Below, one piece after another: positions 4,316 through 41,630 of a stretch of 64,000 nucleotides of DNA (position 1 is its first letter; each line of letters begins with the position of its first letter). Both the position numbers and the translations under genes were made by a program. This DNA is from Dehalococcoidia bacterium (GTDB lineage: Bacteria; Chloroflexota; Dehalococcoidia; Lucifugimonadales; Lucifugimonadaceae). The DNA lies in assembly GCA_009693115.1 (NCBI GenBank), contig SHXW01000007.1:1-64000 (forward strand), written 5' to 3'. Under the pieces are notes generated by a model. The model saw nothing but the letters and a program-made list of their open reading frames with translations, made no database searches and was not told the origin of the DNA.

Positions 4316-4422
4316 CCCCTCACCCTCGCCCTCTCCCTCAAGGGGAGAGGGGAAACGATCACCCTCACCTGAATCCTCTCCCATCGAGGGAGAGGGGAGA
4401 CGGGCACGGCGTGCCATGCCCC
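4316..4422. repeat. Cluster of palindromic repeats (two GGGAGAGG hairpins plus a GGGCACG hairpin)
   Basis: Three hairpins lie side by side between convergent genes. The first (4329-4350) pairs CCCTCTCCC with GGGGAGAGG. The second (4375-4395) pairs CCTCTCCC with GGGAGAGG. The third (4402-4422) is an imperfect GGGCACGGCGTGCC palindrome. The first copy and its flank match the copy inside the neighbouring enolase gene (5236-5279). The cluster may also end transcription of both convergent genes. Confidence 0.8.
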
Positions 4423-4427
4423 TACGA

Positions 4428-5711
4428 CTATCGGCCTGTTTTTCGCACCCGGGTCTGCGGGTCGTTCAAGAACTGTCTCTTCAGGGCCATACCCAGCCCC
4501 GGTTCGTCAGGCGCGTACACGACACCGTCTTCGATGCGCGGCAGCCTGTCCACCACCCTTGGGTAGACCTCGCGGTTGAAGGCCCGCACGGTCTCCTGCA
4601 CGATGGCGTTCGGGGCGTGTATCGAAAGGTGCACCCCGGCCATCAGGTTCACGGGGCCTGTGCAGTCGTGCGGCGTGAGCGGGACCTTCGCAGAATGGGC
4701 CATGCCGGCAACCGCCTTCGCCTCGGTCAGGCCGCCCACCCAGCACACGTCCAGCATGCACACTCCGACGTGGCCGCGGTCGAACAGTTCTGTGTATGCC
4801 TCTTTCGTCGCGAGGGACTCACTCGCCGCGATGGGGTTCCTGCTGATGCGAGCGACCTGAGCCAGGCCCTCAACGTCCTGCGCGCCCAGCACGTCCTCCA
4901 CCCACATGAGGTCGAATTCGTTGAGCGCATGGACGATCCTCATCGCCGCGGGCAGCGACCATGTCCCGTGGATTTCAGCCGCCACCTCCATCCTGTTCCC
5001 GACGGCGTCTCTGATCTTCCGGAAGGGCTCCAGCCCCTTCTCGATGTCCGACGCGGAGATGAAGTGCCCGCCGGTGCTGTCGGCGAACTGGTCGAACGGC
5101 CATATCTTCATGCCAGTGACGCCGTCCGCCAGCAGGGACTCGGCGAGCCCGCCTGCGTCGTTGAGGAACCACTGGAGGTCGTCGAGAACGGGAAACAGGG
5201 ATTTCGCAGATTCGGGGCCGGATTTTTTGACGCCCGATGAACCCCTCACCAGCGCCCTCTCCCGCAAGGGGAGAGGGGGAAAGCCCGCCGGCTGCGAAAG
5301 CCGACCAGCCCCCTCGGACGGGCGAACGGCATACGCCGCTGAAGCGCAGGTGTTGTAGATGCGTATCGAGTCCCGCGCCTTCCCGCCCATCACCTTCCAC
5401 ACCGGCTCGCCACGCGCCTGCCCGGCGATGTCCCAGAGGGCCACATCGACAGCGGAGACCGCCCTTGTCCACGCGTCCCGCGTCCGCCATATCCTGCCGC
5501 GGCGCAGCAATGCCTCGTGCAGGCCCTCCACGTTGAGCGGGTCGGAGCCGATCAGCAGGCCCGCCATGTCGGCGTGAATGCACTCCTCGACCGCGCCCGG
5601 CCCGCCCGTCGTCTCGCCGAGCCCGACGATTCCCGAGTCTGTCCGCAGCTGCACCCACACGGGCCGCGGGTACCACGCGCACCTGACCGTTTCGACCGAG
5701 GTGATTTTCAT
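4428..5711 (-). CDS. Mandelate racemase/muconate lactonizing-type enzyme with in-frame repeat insertion
   Basis: Enolase-superfamily enzyme of 427 residues with a capping domain (1-120) and a TIM barrel. Barrel landmarks: GMKIWPFD (Lys202), AAEIHG (Glu246), WVEDV (Glu272) and AASES (Glu298) as metal ligands, and TPHDCTGP with His348 as likely acid/base. Such enzymes abstract a proton alpha to a carboxylate, usually to dehydrate or epimerise acid sugars. Between residues about 130 and 170 there is an extra Pro/Arg/Gly-rich segment (PPLPLRERALVRG) absent from normal family architecture. Its DNA is a palindromic repeat shared with the intergenic cluster at 4316. The frame stays open through it. 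GAGG precedes the ATG. Whether the enzyme still folds is unknown. Confidence 0.88.
   Translation of the reverse strand: MKITSVETVRCAWYPRPVWVQLRTDSGIVGLGETTGGPGAVEECIHADMAGLLIGSDPLNVEGLHEALLRRGRIWRTRDAWTRAVSAVDVALWDIAGQARGEPVWKVMGGKARDSIRIYNTCASAAYAVRPSEGAGRLSQPAGFPPLPLRERALVRGSSGVKKSGPESAKSLFPVLDDLQWFLNDAGGLAESLLADGVTGMKIWPFDQFADSTGGHFISASDIEKGLEPFRKIRDAVGNRMEVAAEIHGTWSLPAAMRIVHALNEFDLMWVEDVLGAQDVEGLAQVARISRNPIAASESLATKEAYTELFDRGHVGVCMLDVCWVGGLTEAKAVAGMAHSAKVPLTPHDCTGPVNLMAGVHLSIHAPNAIVQETVRAFNREVYPRVVDRLPRIEDGVVYAPDEPGLGMALKRQFLNDPQTRVRKTGR
5236..5279. repeat. Palindromic repeat inserted inside the enolase-family gene
   Basis: CCCTCTCCC (5255-5263) pairs with GGGGAGAGGG (5268-5277) around a short GCAA loop. 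The flanking CCCCTCACC and the trailing GGAAA match the first copy of the intergenic cluster at 4316-4355 at nearly every base. The copy is read through as part of residues 130-170 of the host protein. Confidence 0.85.
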
Positions 5712-33366: not shown

Positions 33367-34043
33367 ATGTCAGGCAACCCGCGCCACATCACCTTCAGTT
33401 GTCCACAGCGAAATTTGTTAAATCTTTCGCTTCTGCCTGCCACAAGCATTGACTGCCAGCCGGGTCCGTCATAACCTCCGCGGTATGTGGCGCGTCTGTG
33501 CCACTCTCCGTCTTGAGGCCGGGCCGTGACAAGCGGCCACAACTTGAGGTTCTGCCTATTCGAGTGAAGCTTCTGCCATGATGCTGTCCTGCCAGCAGCG
33601 GGACCATCCGCGTGGAAATTCACCACTGGCTTGCGCGCCATTCGTGCTTGAGCCTCGGTCTGCCGGGGCTTAAAGAGTTGAACACCAATGGATCAACCGA
33701 CCGGAAGCGCTGCCGGCCCCCACGGCAAGGACGGATCGCACCTCCAGCAACCAGCGCCACCAGGCGCAATGCGGGAGTGTGTTTGAACCTTCAACCTATT
33801 TAAATTGGCGATGTAGCGCGCCGCGAATCGATTGCCCATGCGGGGAGAGGGTTAACGTATCGGAAGACTGCGCCATGACTTGGATTGCTATGGGAGAGTC
33901 TTACTAGGAATTAGCCAACGGGCAATAGTCAAGTAACCGATGTGGCCAGCTTCGCGCTGATTTCCAGCGTGAGGTCTGCCACGAGCAAGACCTTAGGGTT
34001 TCCGGACCACCACCGCGCGCCCCGGACGCGCAGAAGAGGAGAG
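33367..34043. other. Long intergenic stretch; nothing recognised
   Basis: About 680 bases. A minus-strand open frame (33108-33641) mostly mirrors the nuclease-like gene and is a shadow. The region from about 33780 to 33930 is relatively AT-rich (for instance ATTTAAATTGG) and probably holds the promoter of the fusion gene that follows. No RNA gene seen. Confidence 0.4.
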
Positions 34044-36296
34044 ATGACTACCAAACCCCCCGATAGTCCTCGCAGGACCTCAACAACACGCCGCCCACGG
34101 GCGCTCGGAGCCGTCACGAACCTCGAGCACCATGTCAGTCCGCAGTGGTGGCAGGAAATATTCAACTCCACCTATCTCAAGACTGATGCTGATGTCGTGG
34201 ACGACCCGGCCCTCACTCAGGCCGAAGTTGACCTATTCTCACTCGCCCTTGGTATCCAGCCGGATCACCGGATACTTGATCTGTGTTGCGGTCAGGGTCG
34301 TCATGCACTGGAACTCGCCAGGCGAGGCTTCAAATCCGTGGACGGCTTCGATAGGTCCAGGTACCTCGTAGGCCGCGCCCGTAAGACTGCCATCAGCGAA
34401 CGCCTGCACGTCCGTTTCCTTGAAGGCGACGCCCGCAAGCTCCGCTATCCCGATTCCAGCTTTGACCGCGCCTATATCGCCGGCAACAGCTTCGGCTACT
34501 TCTCAGAAGATAACGGCGACGCCGCTGTTCTTGCTGAGGCCCGCCGAGTCCTCGCCGCAGGTGGACGCCTGCTCCTTGATATTTCGGACGGAGACTGGGT
34601 TCGCGCCAACTTTGATCCCCGCTCCTGGGAGTGGATCAGCCCTAAGGAATACGTCTGCCGCGAACGCCAGTTCTCCGCCGACGGCCAAAAGGTCATCTCC
34701 CGCGAAATGGTCGGGCATATCGAAAAGGGCGTCCAGGTGGACCAGTTCTATTCTGCCCGCCTCTATAACCATGAAACCATCAAGGTGCTCCTTGAAAACA
34801 ACGGTTTCACCGCGGTCAGCTTCGCCGGTGACTACGAAACAAAGTCGCAGAAAAATCAGGATCTTGGCTTGATGGGCCAGAGGATCATCGTTACCGCCGA
34901 GGTCAAGAAGGCTGGCGCCCCTCTTCCCTCCCCCTCTCAGAGCGAGCGCAAGAGTGTGGGTGCGATCCATGCTTCAAACGGCAACGGAAATGGCTATGCC
35001 TCCAATGGGAATGGCTATTCCAACGGCAAGACCAACGGCGTAGCCGTCAACGGCAACGGGCATTCAAACGGCCACTCCTTGGTTCCCTCTCCGTCGCAGG
35101 GAGAGGATGAGAGAGCGGGTACAGGCCACGCTCCAAACGGCAACGGCCGGCACTCTAACGGCAGCACTAACGGGGTCAATGGCAATGGCCACGCGGCTCT
35201 CCGCAAGATACGCGTCGGCGTCGTACAGGGAGACCCCACCCGCGTTGACCTGGTCAAACCAAATGGCACGTTCGACGAAGACGATATGGAGACGATCGGC
35301 CTCCTCAAGACCGCTCTGTCGCGCCTGGACGGACGGTATGAATTCACCTATTTCGACCGCCACGGCGCCCTTCTAGAAACACTCACCGCAAACGCGGCGC
35401 GGCTCGACCTCGTCCTCAATCTCTGTGATGAGGGATATAACAACGAGGCGCGCCTTGAGCTTCACATCCCGGCCTTGCTCGACATCCTGAACATCCCCTA
35501 CACCGGCGCCGGTCCGCAGGGCCTCGCCCACTGCTACGACAAGTCCCTTGTCCGGGGGGTCGCACGCGAACTTGGCATCCCAGTAGCCCCCGGCATTTTC
35601 GTCAACCCCGGCGAACCACCGCCTGCGGTACTTCCGTTTCCATTCCCCGTCATAGTCAAACCCAACTGCGGAGACTCCTCGTTCGGCATCACTCAGAAGA
35701 GCGTGGCGAACGACGCTGCGGAACTTGCCCTGTCCATTGCCAACGTGCGAAAACTCACAGGTGGGCAGAGGCCAGTCATCATCGAACGCCTACTCACAGG
35801 CGCAGATATGAGCGTTGGCCTCATGGGCAACCCGGGCGCGTTCCACGTCCTCCCGGTCACTCAGGAGGACTACTCCGCCGTCCCCGACAACATGCCCAAG
35901 ATCTGCGGGTATGAGGCCAAGTGGGATCCCAACTCACCCTACTGGAACATCCTGTCAGTTCCTGCGAAAGCCCCTGACAAAACTGTGAACACGATCGTCG
36001 AACACTGCAAAGTCATGTTCCAGCGTCTGGGGTGCCGCGACTACGCCCGCTTTGACTGGAGGCTTGATGCTGGGGGCAATCCGTACATGCTTGAGGTCAA
36101 CCCCAACCCCGGCTGGTGCTGGGACGGTCATCTCGCCAAGATGTGCAAACTTGCCGGCATGAGCTATCCGCAGATGCTTGGCCTCATCCTGAAGTCGGCT
36201 GAGCAGCGCTACGGCCTGGGCCCGGTTCACCACGGCGACAGAACATGGCCGGTCGCCTCCTCCTCTACCGAACTCGCCGCGCTCAAGGCGTTTTAG
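34044..36296 (+). CDS. Fusion of SAM methyltransferase and D-Ala-D-Ala-ligase-like ATP-grasp enzyme
   Basis: 750 residues from the ATG at 34044 (AGAGGAGAG just upstream). Residues 35-285 are a class I methyltransferase: motif I ILDLCCGQGRH (77-87), GFDRSRYLV, FLEGDARKL and [17 protein letters not shown]. Residues about 290-385 form a linker dominated by Asn-Gly repeats and containing two repeat-derived pieces (LPSPSQSER, LVPSPSQGEDERAG). Residues 388-750 are an ATP-grasp ligase of the D-Ala-D-Ala ligase family: LLDILNIPYTGAGP, PVIVKPNCGDSSFGI (536-549), VIIERLLTGADMSVG, and metal ligands in RFDWRL and LEVNPNPG (683-690). It probably forms an amide or dipeptide bond to a small substrate that it also methylates. 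No close function is known to me. Confidence 0.88.
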   Translation: MTTKPPDSPRRTSTTRRPRALGAVTNLEHHVSPQWWQEIFNSTYLKTDADVVDDPALTQAEVDLFSLALGIQPDHRILDLCCGQGRHALELARRGFKSVDGFDRSRYLVGRARKTAISERLHVRFLEGDARKLRYPDSSFDRAYIAGNSFGYFSEDNGDAAVLAEARRVLAAGGRLLLDISDGDWVRANFDPRSWEWISPKEYVCRERQFSADGQKVISREMVGHIEKGVQVDQFYSARLYNHETIKVLLENNGFTAVSFAGDYETKSQKNQDLGLMGQRIIVTAEVKKAGAPLPSPSQSERKSVGAIHASNGNGNGYASNGNGYSNGKTNGVAVNGNGHSNGHSLVPSPSQGEDERAGTGHAPNGNGRHSNGSTNGVNGNGHAALRKIRVGVVQGDPTRVDLVKPNGTFDEDDMETIGLLKTALSRLDGRYEFTYFDRHGALLETLTANAARLDLVLNLCDEGYNNEARLELHIPALLDILNIPYTGAGPQGLAHCYDKSLVRGVARELGIPVAPGIFVNPGEPPPAVLPFPFPVIVKPNCGDSSFGITQKSVANDAAELALSIANVRKLTGGQRPVIIERLLTGADMSVGLMGNPGAFHVLPVTQEDYSAVPDNMPKICGYEAKWDPNSPYWNILSVPAKAPDKTVNTIVEHCKVMFQRLGCRDYARFDWRLDAGGNPYMLEVNPNPGWCWDGHLAKMCKLAGMSYPQMLGLILKSAEQRYGLGPVHHGDRTWPVASSSTELAALKAF
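35086..35106. repeat. Palindromic repeat remnant inside the fusion gene linker
   Basis: CCTCTCC (35086-35092) pairs with GGAGAGG (35100-35106). The arm sequence matches the CCTCTCCC/GGGAGAGG family at 4329, 4375, 5255 and 62646. It is translated as PSPSQGEDERAG. A second, more diverged remnant lies at about 34920-34950 (CCCTCCCCCTCTCAGAGCGA). Confidence 0.7.
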
Positions 36297-40655: not shown

Positions 40656-41630
40656 TTGGACTACACCGTCTGGGCTTACTGGTACGACCTCATATACTCC
40701 CTTGCTCCGTCAGGCGATATGGACTTCTATGCCAGACTCGCCCGAGAGGCCGTTGGACGGCCTCTTTCTTCCCGCCGCCCTGAGGCGCGGACTGCCAGCG
40801 CCGAAGGGCCAAGTTCCATACGCTCGCGCAATAGTGATGTCTCCATACTCGAGCTCGGCGTGGGCACGGGGCGTATCGCCATCCCAATCGCTCTCGCTGG
40901 TGCGAATATCACGGCCATAGACCTGCAGACAACAATGCTCGACATGGCCGAGGCAAAGGCCCTCTCCTCCGGATTGGCGGTACGCAGAAACGGCCGTCGT
41001 CGAACTCCGAAAGACACTCTCAGGCCGCAGTTGGACCCGCCCGCCACAATTGAATTCATCCAGGCCGACATGCGCACCCTCGAGCTTGGCAGGTCGTTCC
41101 CGCTCATCACCATCCCCTCTAACACACTCCTCCTTGCGACAACAAAAAGGGACCAACTTTCCACACTGAAACGTGCCGCCGCCCACCTTTTCCCAGGCGG
41201 CCTCCTCACCTTCGACATCTTCAACCCCACCTCCGATCTACTTTCGGACCGCGAGGAGGCGCCCTTCTTCTGGGGTGAAACCGTCAACCCTGAGAATGGG
41301 CGCACCTGCCGTGTCTATGCCATAAACCGCATTGACATCCGCCGACAGCTCAATCGGGGCACACAGATCATCGAAGAACTTCCCGGGGACCTGGCCCTTC
41401 CCGCAATGCGGCGCCCGTATCCTGTCGAAGGAGAGAGGGCTGGGGCCAGTGGAGAAGCTGTCCGCCGCATCGAACTTGACATCCTCATACGCTACCTCCA
41501 CCCGGCTGAAGCACACCTCCTCATCGAATCCGCAGGCCTCGCCGTGACAGCGCTCTATGGTGACTTTGACCTCTCGCCCTTCACTATCTCCAGCCCCCGC
41601 ATGGTCTTCGTTTGTGTGCGACGACGCTGA
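40656..41630 (+). CDS. Class I SAM-dependent methyltransferase
   Basis: 324 residues from a TTG, with GGAGAAG upstream in the end of the previous gene. The N-terminal WAYWYDLIYSLAPSGDMDFY matches small-molecule methyltransferases; motif I is ILELGVGTGRIAIPIAL and the acidic loop is ITAIDLQTTMLDMA. Later FIQADMRTL and FPGGLLTFDIFNP follow. Two stretches look inserted: about residues 38-58 (GRPLSSRRPEARTASAEGPS) and PYPVEGERAGASGEA near 260, the latter resembling half of the GGGAGAGG repeat in translation. Substrate unknown. It is the third gene of a compact operon with the aldolase and lipoprotein. Confidence 0.85.
   Translation: MDYTVWAYWYDLIYSLAPSGDMDFYARLAREAVGRPLSSRRPEARTASAEGPSSIRSRNSDVSILELGVGTGRIAIPIALAGANITAIDLQTTMLDMAEAKALSSGLAVRRNGRRRTPKDTLRPQLDPPATIEFIQADMRTLELGRSFPLITIPSNTLLLATTKRDQLSTLKRAAAHLFPGGLLTFDIFNPTSDLLSDREEAPFFWGETVNPENGRTCRVYAINRIDIRRQLNRGTQIIEELPGDLALPAMRRPYPVEGERAGASGEAVRRIELDILIRYLHPAEAHLLIESAGLAVTALYGDFDLSPFTISSPRMVFVCVRRR

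Follow-up and report, generated by a model that had tools for sequence, protein, structure and literature searches.

Amide ligation and methylation are known to meet in one pathway through separate proteins. Mycosporine Mys genes presumably likewise place a methyltransferase and an ATP-grasp enzyme in one pathway, each as a separate gene. The cystargolide and belactosin pathways also combine the two reactions (PMC11427300); there the activities reside on separate proteins, whereas the enzyme described here is one fused protein, and the likeness is drawn at the pathway level. Each half can be compared with described enzymes: the ligase half with Ddl (E. coli DdlB, VanA), and the methyltransferase half with NmbA (9RI2), a standalone bacterial enzyme that occurs with BshABC and N-methylates the cysteine of bacillithiol (PMC12719100). 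No paper describing the methyltransferase plus ATP-grasp architecture was found in the open-access literature, and we found no curated family that names the two-domain enzyme; the known domains are apparently joined in a conserved combination as yet undescribed. The original prediction had not recognized this architecture, which the literature bears out, although it proved to be widespread rather than peculiar to this genome.

The window, a stretch of 64,000 nt from a Dehalococcoidia bacterium, contains a frame of 750 codons at 34044–36296 (+) whose sole stop is terminal, whereas the remaining five frames of the interval carry 10–41 stops each. AGGAGAG lies just 5′ of the ATG at 34044, and an alternative upstream start, GTG at 33942, would give 784 aa. 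The source genome (2.02 Mb, 40 contigs, 95.6% complete) holds a single copy. Translation and Pfam confirmed the predicted single 750-residue frame with both domains, which is laid out as follows.

34044–36296 (stop included), + strand: 750-aa fused enzyme, class I SAM methyltransferase plus Ddl-fold ATP-grasp ligase (translation, Pfam, model, relatives)
34101–34919, + strand: methyltransferase domain, residues 20–292, Rossmann core with antiparallel beta cap (Pfam, fold)
34920–35207, + strand: Asn/Gly-rich linker, residues 293–388 (96 residues), with two degenerate 64-nt repeat copies
35083–35146, + strand: second 64-nt repeat copy in the linker, with an in-frame palindromic element at 35085–35107
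35208–36221, + strand: ATP-grasp domain, residues 389–726, complete Ddl fold, ATP/Mg residues kept and D-Ala pocket replaced

The fused gene is present as one ORF in four genomes of the same family, with 55–57% identity to the window protein. Scanning of GTDB species genomes with an alignment of the window protein's family relatives yielded at least 506 confirmed relatives. Both halves lie in one ORF at 158 of the 160 loci examined for fusion (some being the same gene reached twice), with the methyltransferase always N-terminal; the two exceptions are L069, which runs off a contig edge, and L147, which is frameshifted, as are L146 and L089. Halves encoded as separate genes in homologues, named beforehand by the original prediction as the sign of an artefact, were not found among these 160 loci. 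An assembly or annotation artefact merging two genes could be suspected from the odd, repeat-derived linker of the window copy, but is refuted by the same fusion in the four same-family relatives and about 150 further loci, and its probability is negligible.

Among the best 80 of the at least 506 relatives, the archaeal carriers were Methanosarcina, Methanoculleus, Loki-, Odin-, Jord- and Freyarchaeota, Aigarchaeota and Altiarchaeota, and the bacterial ones Chloroflexi (including SAR202), Planctomycetes, deltaproteobacteria, Atribacteria, TA06, Zixibacteria, KSB1, Verrucomicrobia, Patescibacteria and others; named Methanosarcina and Methanoculleus strains are among the carriers. Across methanogens, Asgard archaea and many bacterial phyla, the two-domain enzyme is ~50–60% identical. 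Its distribution is patchy: at a cut-off of E <= 1e-110, carrier genomes numbered 2/400 in Chloroflexota, 5/343 in Planctomycetota, 6/198 and 9/147 in the phyla of the Desulfobacteraceae and Stahlbacteria loci, and 36/247 and 26/148 in the phyla of Methanosarcina and Lokiarchaeota, respectively. The fused methyltransferases are monophyletic (support 100/99). In a 61-sequence tree built by a quick method, archaea and bacteria are intermixed; it needs 8 archaea/bacteria changes, of which well-supported branches enforce at least 3, so the fused gene has crossed between archaea and bacteria.

The linker sets the window copy apart, with 96 residues versus 11–18 in nearly all relatives (160 loci), and residues 297–381 were modeled with pLDDT <50. 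Its palindromic element, CCCTCTCC-N7-GGAGAGGG, occurs at 112 sites in the 2.02-Mb genome, compared with 5 for a reversed-pattern control. Window coordinates for the repeat or palindromic element are 35083–35146, 5255–5277 and 4329–4396. Two of the window copies sit in frame within genes: one in the linker of the fused enzyme and one in an enolase-superfamily-like ORF at 4428–5711 (−), where the element is translated as PPLPLRERALVRG. Such in-frame copies recall Rickettsia palindromic elements, and the long linker is a lineage-specific decoration outside the design of the enzyme. Elsewhere in the window, a standalone SAM methyltransferase ORF at 40656–41630 (+) contains stretches rich in Arg and Ser, with the look of low-complexity or repeat DNA inserted in frame.

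The ligase half has the fold, the conserved Lys and the Mg-ligand Asp/Glu/Asn residues of the ATP-grasp superfamily. Pfam Dala_Dala_lig_C matched residues 532–715 (E=3e-23, above the curated cut-off), and residues 386–726 of the model matched Ddl/VanA structures over the entire fold (Z 25–29, rmsd 2.5–4.1). ATP/Mg residues K500, K539, E581, R669, D671, E684 and N686 are invariant in 76 relatives; in the alignment to E. coli DdlB, all 76 sequences keep K97, K144, E180, R255, D257, E270 and N272. The pocket is different. Among the DdlB positions that we take to bind D-Ala (E15, Y210, Y216, S281 and L282), four are changed in 76/76 (Y210C, Y216W, S281G, L282H) and E15 falls in a variable, non-conserved column of the 76 aligned sequences. 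The enzyme thus resembles Ddl in its whole fold, its ATP/Mg-binding residues and the R255 equivalent, and differs in its altered D-Ala pocket, its attached methyltransferase and its occurrence in archaea. With the ATP/Mg site kept and the D-Ala pocket changed, the ligase half should, judging from its residues, activate a carboxylate with ATP and is not expected to bind D-Ala in the manner of Ddl. The "intact motifs" of the original prediction therefore hold for the catalytic residues and fail for those of D-Ala recognition, while its doubt about peptidoglycan synthesis is reinforced both by the replaced pocket and by the frequency of the enzyme in archaea, which lack murein; on these two grounds a murein role was rejected. 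A true D-Ala-D-Ala (or D-Ala-X) ligase with an acquired methyltransferase would account for the complete Ddl fold and for the best NCBIfam models being Ddl, yet the score of 109 bits falls below their cut-offs (243–246), all five contact positions examined are changed and the archaeal carriers have no murein, making this reading highly improbable.

Standalone relatives of the ligase half share 28–33% identity. The COG1181-type ligases at L028, L030 and on the Thioflavicoccus plasmid pTHIMO01 belong to the same fold family and have a similar segment before IPY(T/S)G, R.E..(V/I)P..L..L.IPY, but are without a methyltransferase domain and sit in gene clusters. Those of Chloroflexota (L028/L008, L030, L029) form tandem pairs of Ddl-like ATP-grasp genes beside GNAT and KamA-like radical SAM genes, possibly a beta-amino-acid peptide pathway, and the pTHIMO01 relative adjoins diaminobutyrate/diaminopropionate genes and KamA. 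This context hints at amino-acid amide ligases.

The methyltransferase half displays the Rossmann fold, motif I (LDLCCGQG) and the acidic SAM-ribose residue (D103) of class I SAM methyltransferases, together with NSFGYF. Pfam Methyltransf_25 matched residues 77–174 (E=1e-19, above the curated cut-off), and in the METHYLTRANSFERASE half (methyltransferase) SAM residues D79, G83, G85 and D103 are invariant in 76 relatives. Because a fold search with the whole model listed mainly ligases, the domain was folded alone (pLDDT 90, pTM 0.87). Its fold neighbors at Z 20–24 include YunM, KedS8, CcbJ, TylM1, CypM, CgnL, NmbA and glycine/sarcosine N-methyltransferases, most of which are amine N-methyltransferases; the same lists also hold the C- and O-methyltransferases PsmD, SgMT and TleD. 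Nitrogen is our best guess for the methyl acceptor. NmbA is the best sequence match among solved chains (profile E 3.6e-31; next methyltransferase 2.9e-21), with about 30% identity and shared FGYFET and F.PR segments. By fold it ranks only 25th (Z 21.9). Unlike the standalone NmbA, the domain here is attached to a ligase and occurs in archaea as well. In the tree NmbA joins the fused clade at 89/88 support, with standalone methyltransferases equally close (33%, 123 bits to NmbA, versus 32%, 105 bits for the fused domain).

A bifunctional, two-step enzyme, as the original prediction proposed, remains the best reading, given fusion at 158/160 loci and invariant catalytic residues, and we consider it somewhat more probable than its negation that the enzyme combines amide ligation with amine N-methylation to make an N-methylated aminoacyl amide or dipeptide-like metabolite. 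The C-terminal ATP-grasp half would phosphorylate a carboxylate with ATP/Mg to an acyl phosphate, as in Ddl, and couple this to an amine to give an amide; the N-terminal half would methylate the free amine of a building block or of the product. The resulting small metabolite would be common to many mostly anaerobic archaea and bacteria. We infer amide formation, a nitrogen acceptor, the order of the steps and the placing of both halves in one pathway; each domain could instead have a substrate of its own, or the domains could regulate one another. Structure modeling, which had been suggested as a check, returned a complete Ddl fold and a class I methyltransferase fold; the full-length model has a mean pLDDT of 81 and a pTM of 0.61, too low to define how the domains pack.

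Across the neighborhoods of 82 locus groups, formed at 80% identity, the fused gene is mostly solitary, with no conserved biosynthetic cluster. The most recurrent neighbor, noticed post hoc, is a codirectional CitMHS/ArsB-type permease within two genes: in Methanosarcinaceae it lies directly upstream, in L133 and the altiarchaeote L039 it is the second gene downstream, and in the Asgard loci L166, L170 and L184 a member of a different subfamily adjoins the fused gene. In L133, L147, L069 and L102 (three independent groups) the adjoining gene encodes a related standalone SAM methyltransferase, and a RimK-like ligase is a rare extra (L076). In an uncultured bacterium (L074 5780–10204), a small membrane protein precedes the fused gene, which lies between two ATP-grasp-like genes, possibly a multi-ligase operon. 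In the Lokiarchaeota-type loci L166, L182 and L184 the fused gene is surrounded by genes for cysteine desulfurase and for IscU-like and Suf-like proteins. MoeA, GTPase, NifB and Suf neighbors were rejected as functional leads, being limited to single lineages and taken as synteny.

Three other products were weighed against this two-step reading. An osmolyte or polyamine-conjugate enzyme, making an N-methylated compatible-solute dipeptide or an aminoacyl-polyamine, is unlikely, if the least so of the three. A Methanohalophilus glycine/sarcosine N-methyltransferase among the fold neighbors fits the former, and polyamine genes near the fused gene in 5/82 groups, such as L102 with its agmatinase-like gene 7 bp upstream, fit the latter; pyruvoyl arginine decarboxylase, however, is absent from the window's genome and occurs in 11/27 bacterial carriers versus 21/53 same-phyla non-carriers, and this lack of co-occurrence led us to drop that route as a lead. 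Slightly less probable is a low-molecular-weight (LMW) thiol synthase, a one-protein analogue of BshC plus NmbA in which the ATP-grasp half joins cysteine to a scaffold and the methyltransferase half N-methylates the cysteine amine. It would suit NmbA as the closest solved relative, the cysteine desulfurase/IscU/Suf-like surroundings of the Lokiarchaeota-type loci, and the carriage of the gene by Verrucomicrobia and Planctomycetes, phyla in which no LMW thiol is known (PMC6282198). Against it, NmbA is one of many fold neighbors, it groups with the fused clade only at 89/88, and a standalone methyltransferase is as close to it as the fused domain. BshC, sought in 53 carrier genomes, was present in 1 and missing in 52, and the classical bacillithiol route (scored on BshC) was rejected on this count.

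Improbable, too, is a cryptic-methylation ligase, in which a temporary carboxylate methyl ester steers later steps and is then removed: the fold neighbors are mostly N-directed and no esterase neighbor is conserved, an AstE/AspA-like hydrolase lying near the fused gene in only 2/82 groups (L060, L103). Its appeal lies in the cystargolide/belactosin warhead assembly, where a methyltransferase and ligases share one cryptic-methylation pathway (PMC11427300).

For the two-step enzyme, conservation at ~50–60% and transfer between archaea and bacteria, for the most part with no fixed gene cluster, imply that the product should be both useful and specific. It is tentatively conceivable that an undescribed N-methylated metabolite, possibly an LMW thiol or a solute, is common to methanogens, Asgards and many mostly anaerobic phyla, with one transferable gene sufficient for ligation and methylation. 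Automatic annotation would label such an enzyme Ddl or methyltransferase; if the reading is true, a single gene would provide ligation and methylation of a small metabolite across domains of life.
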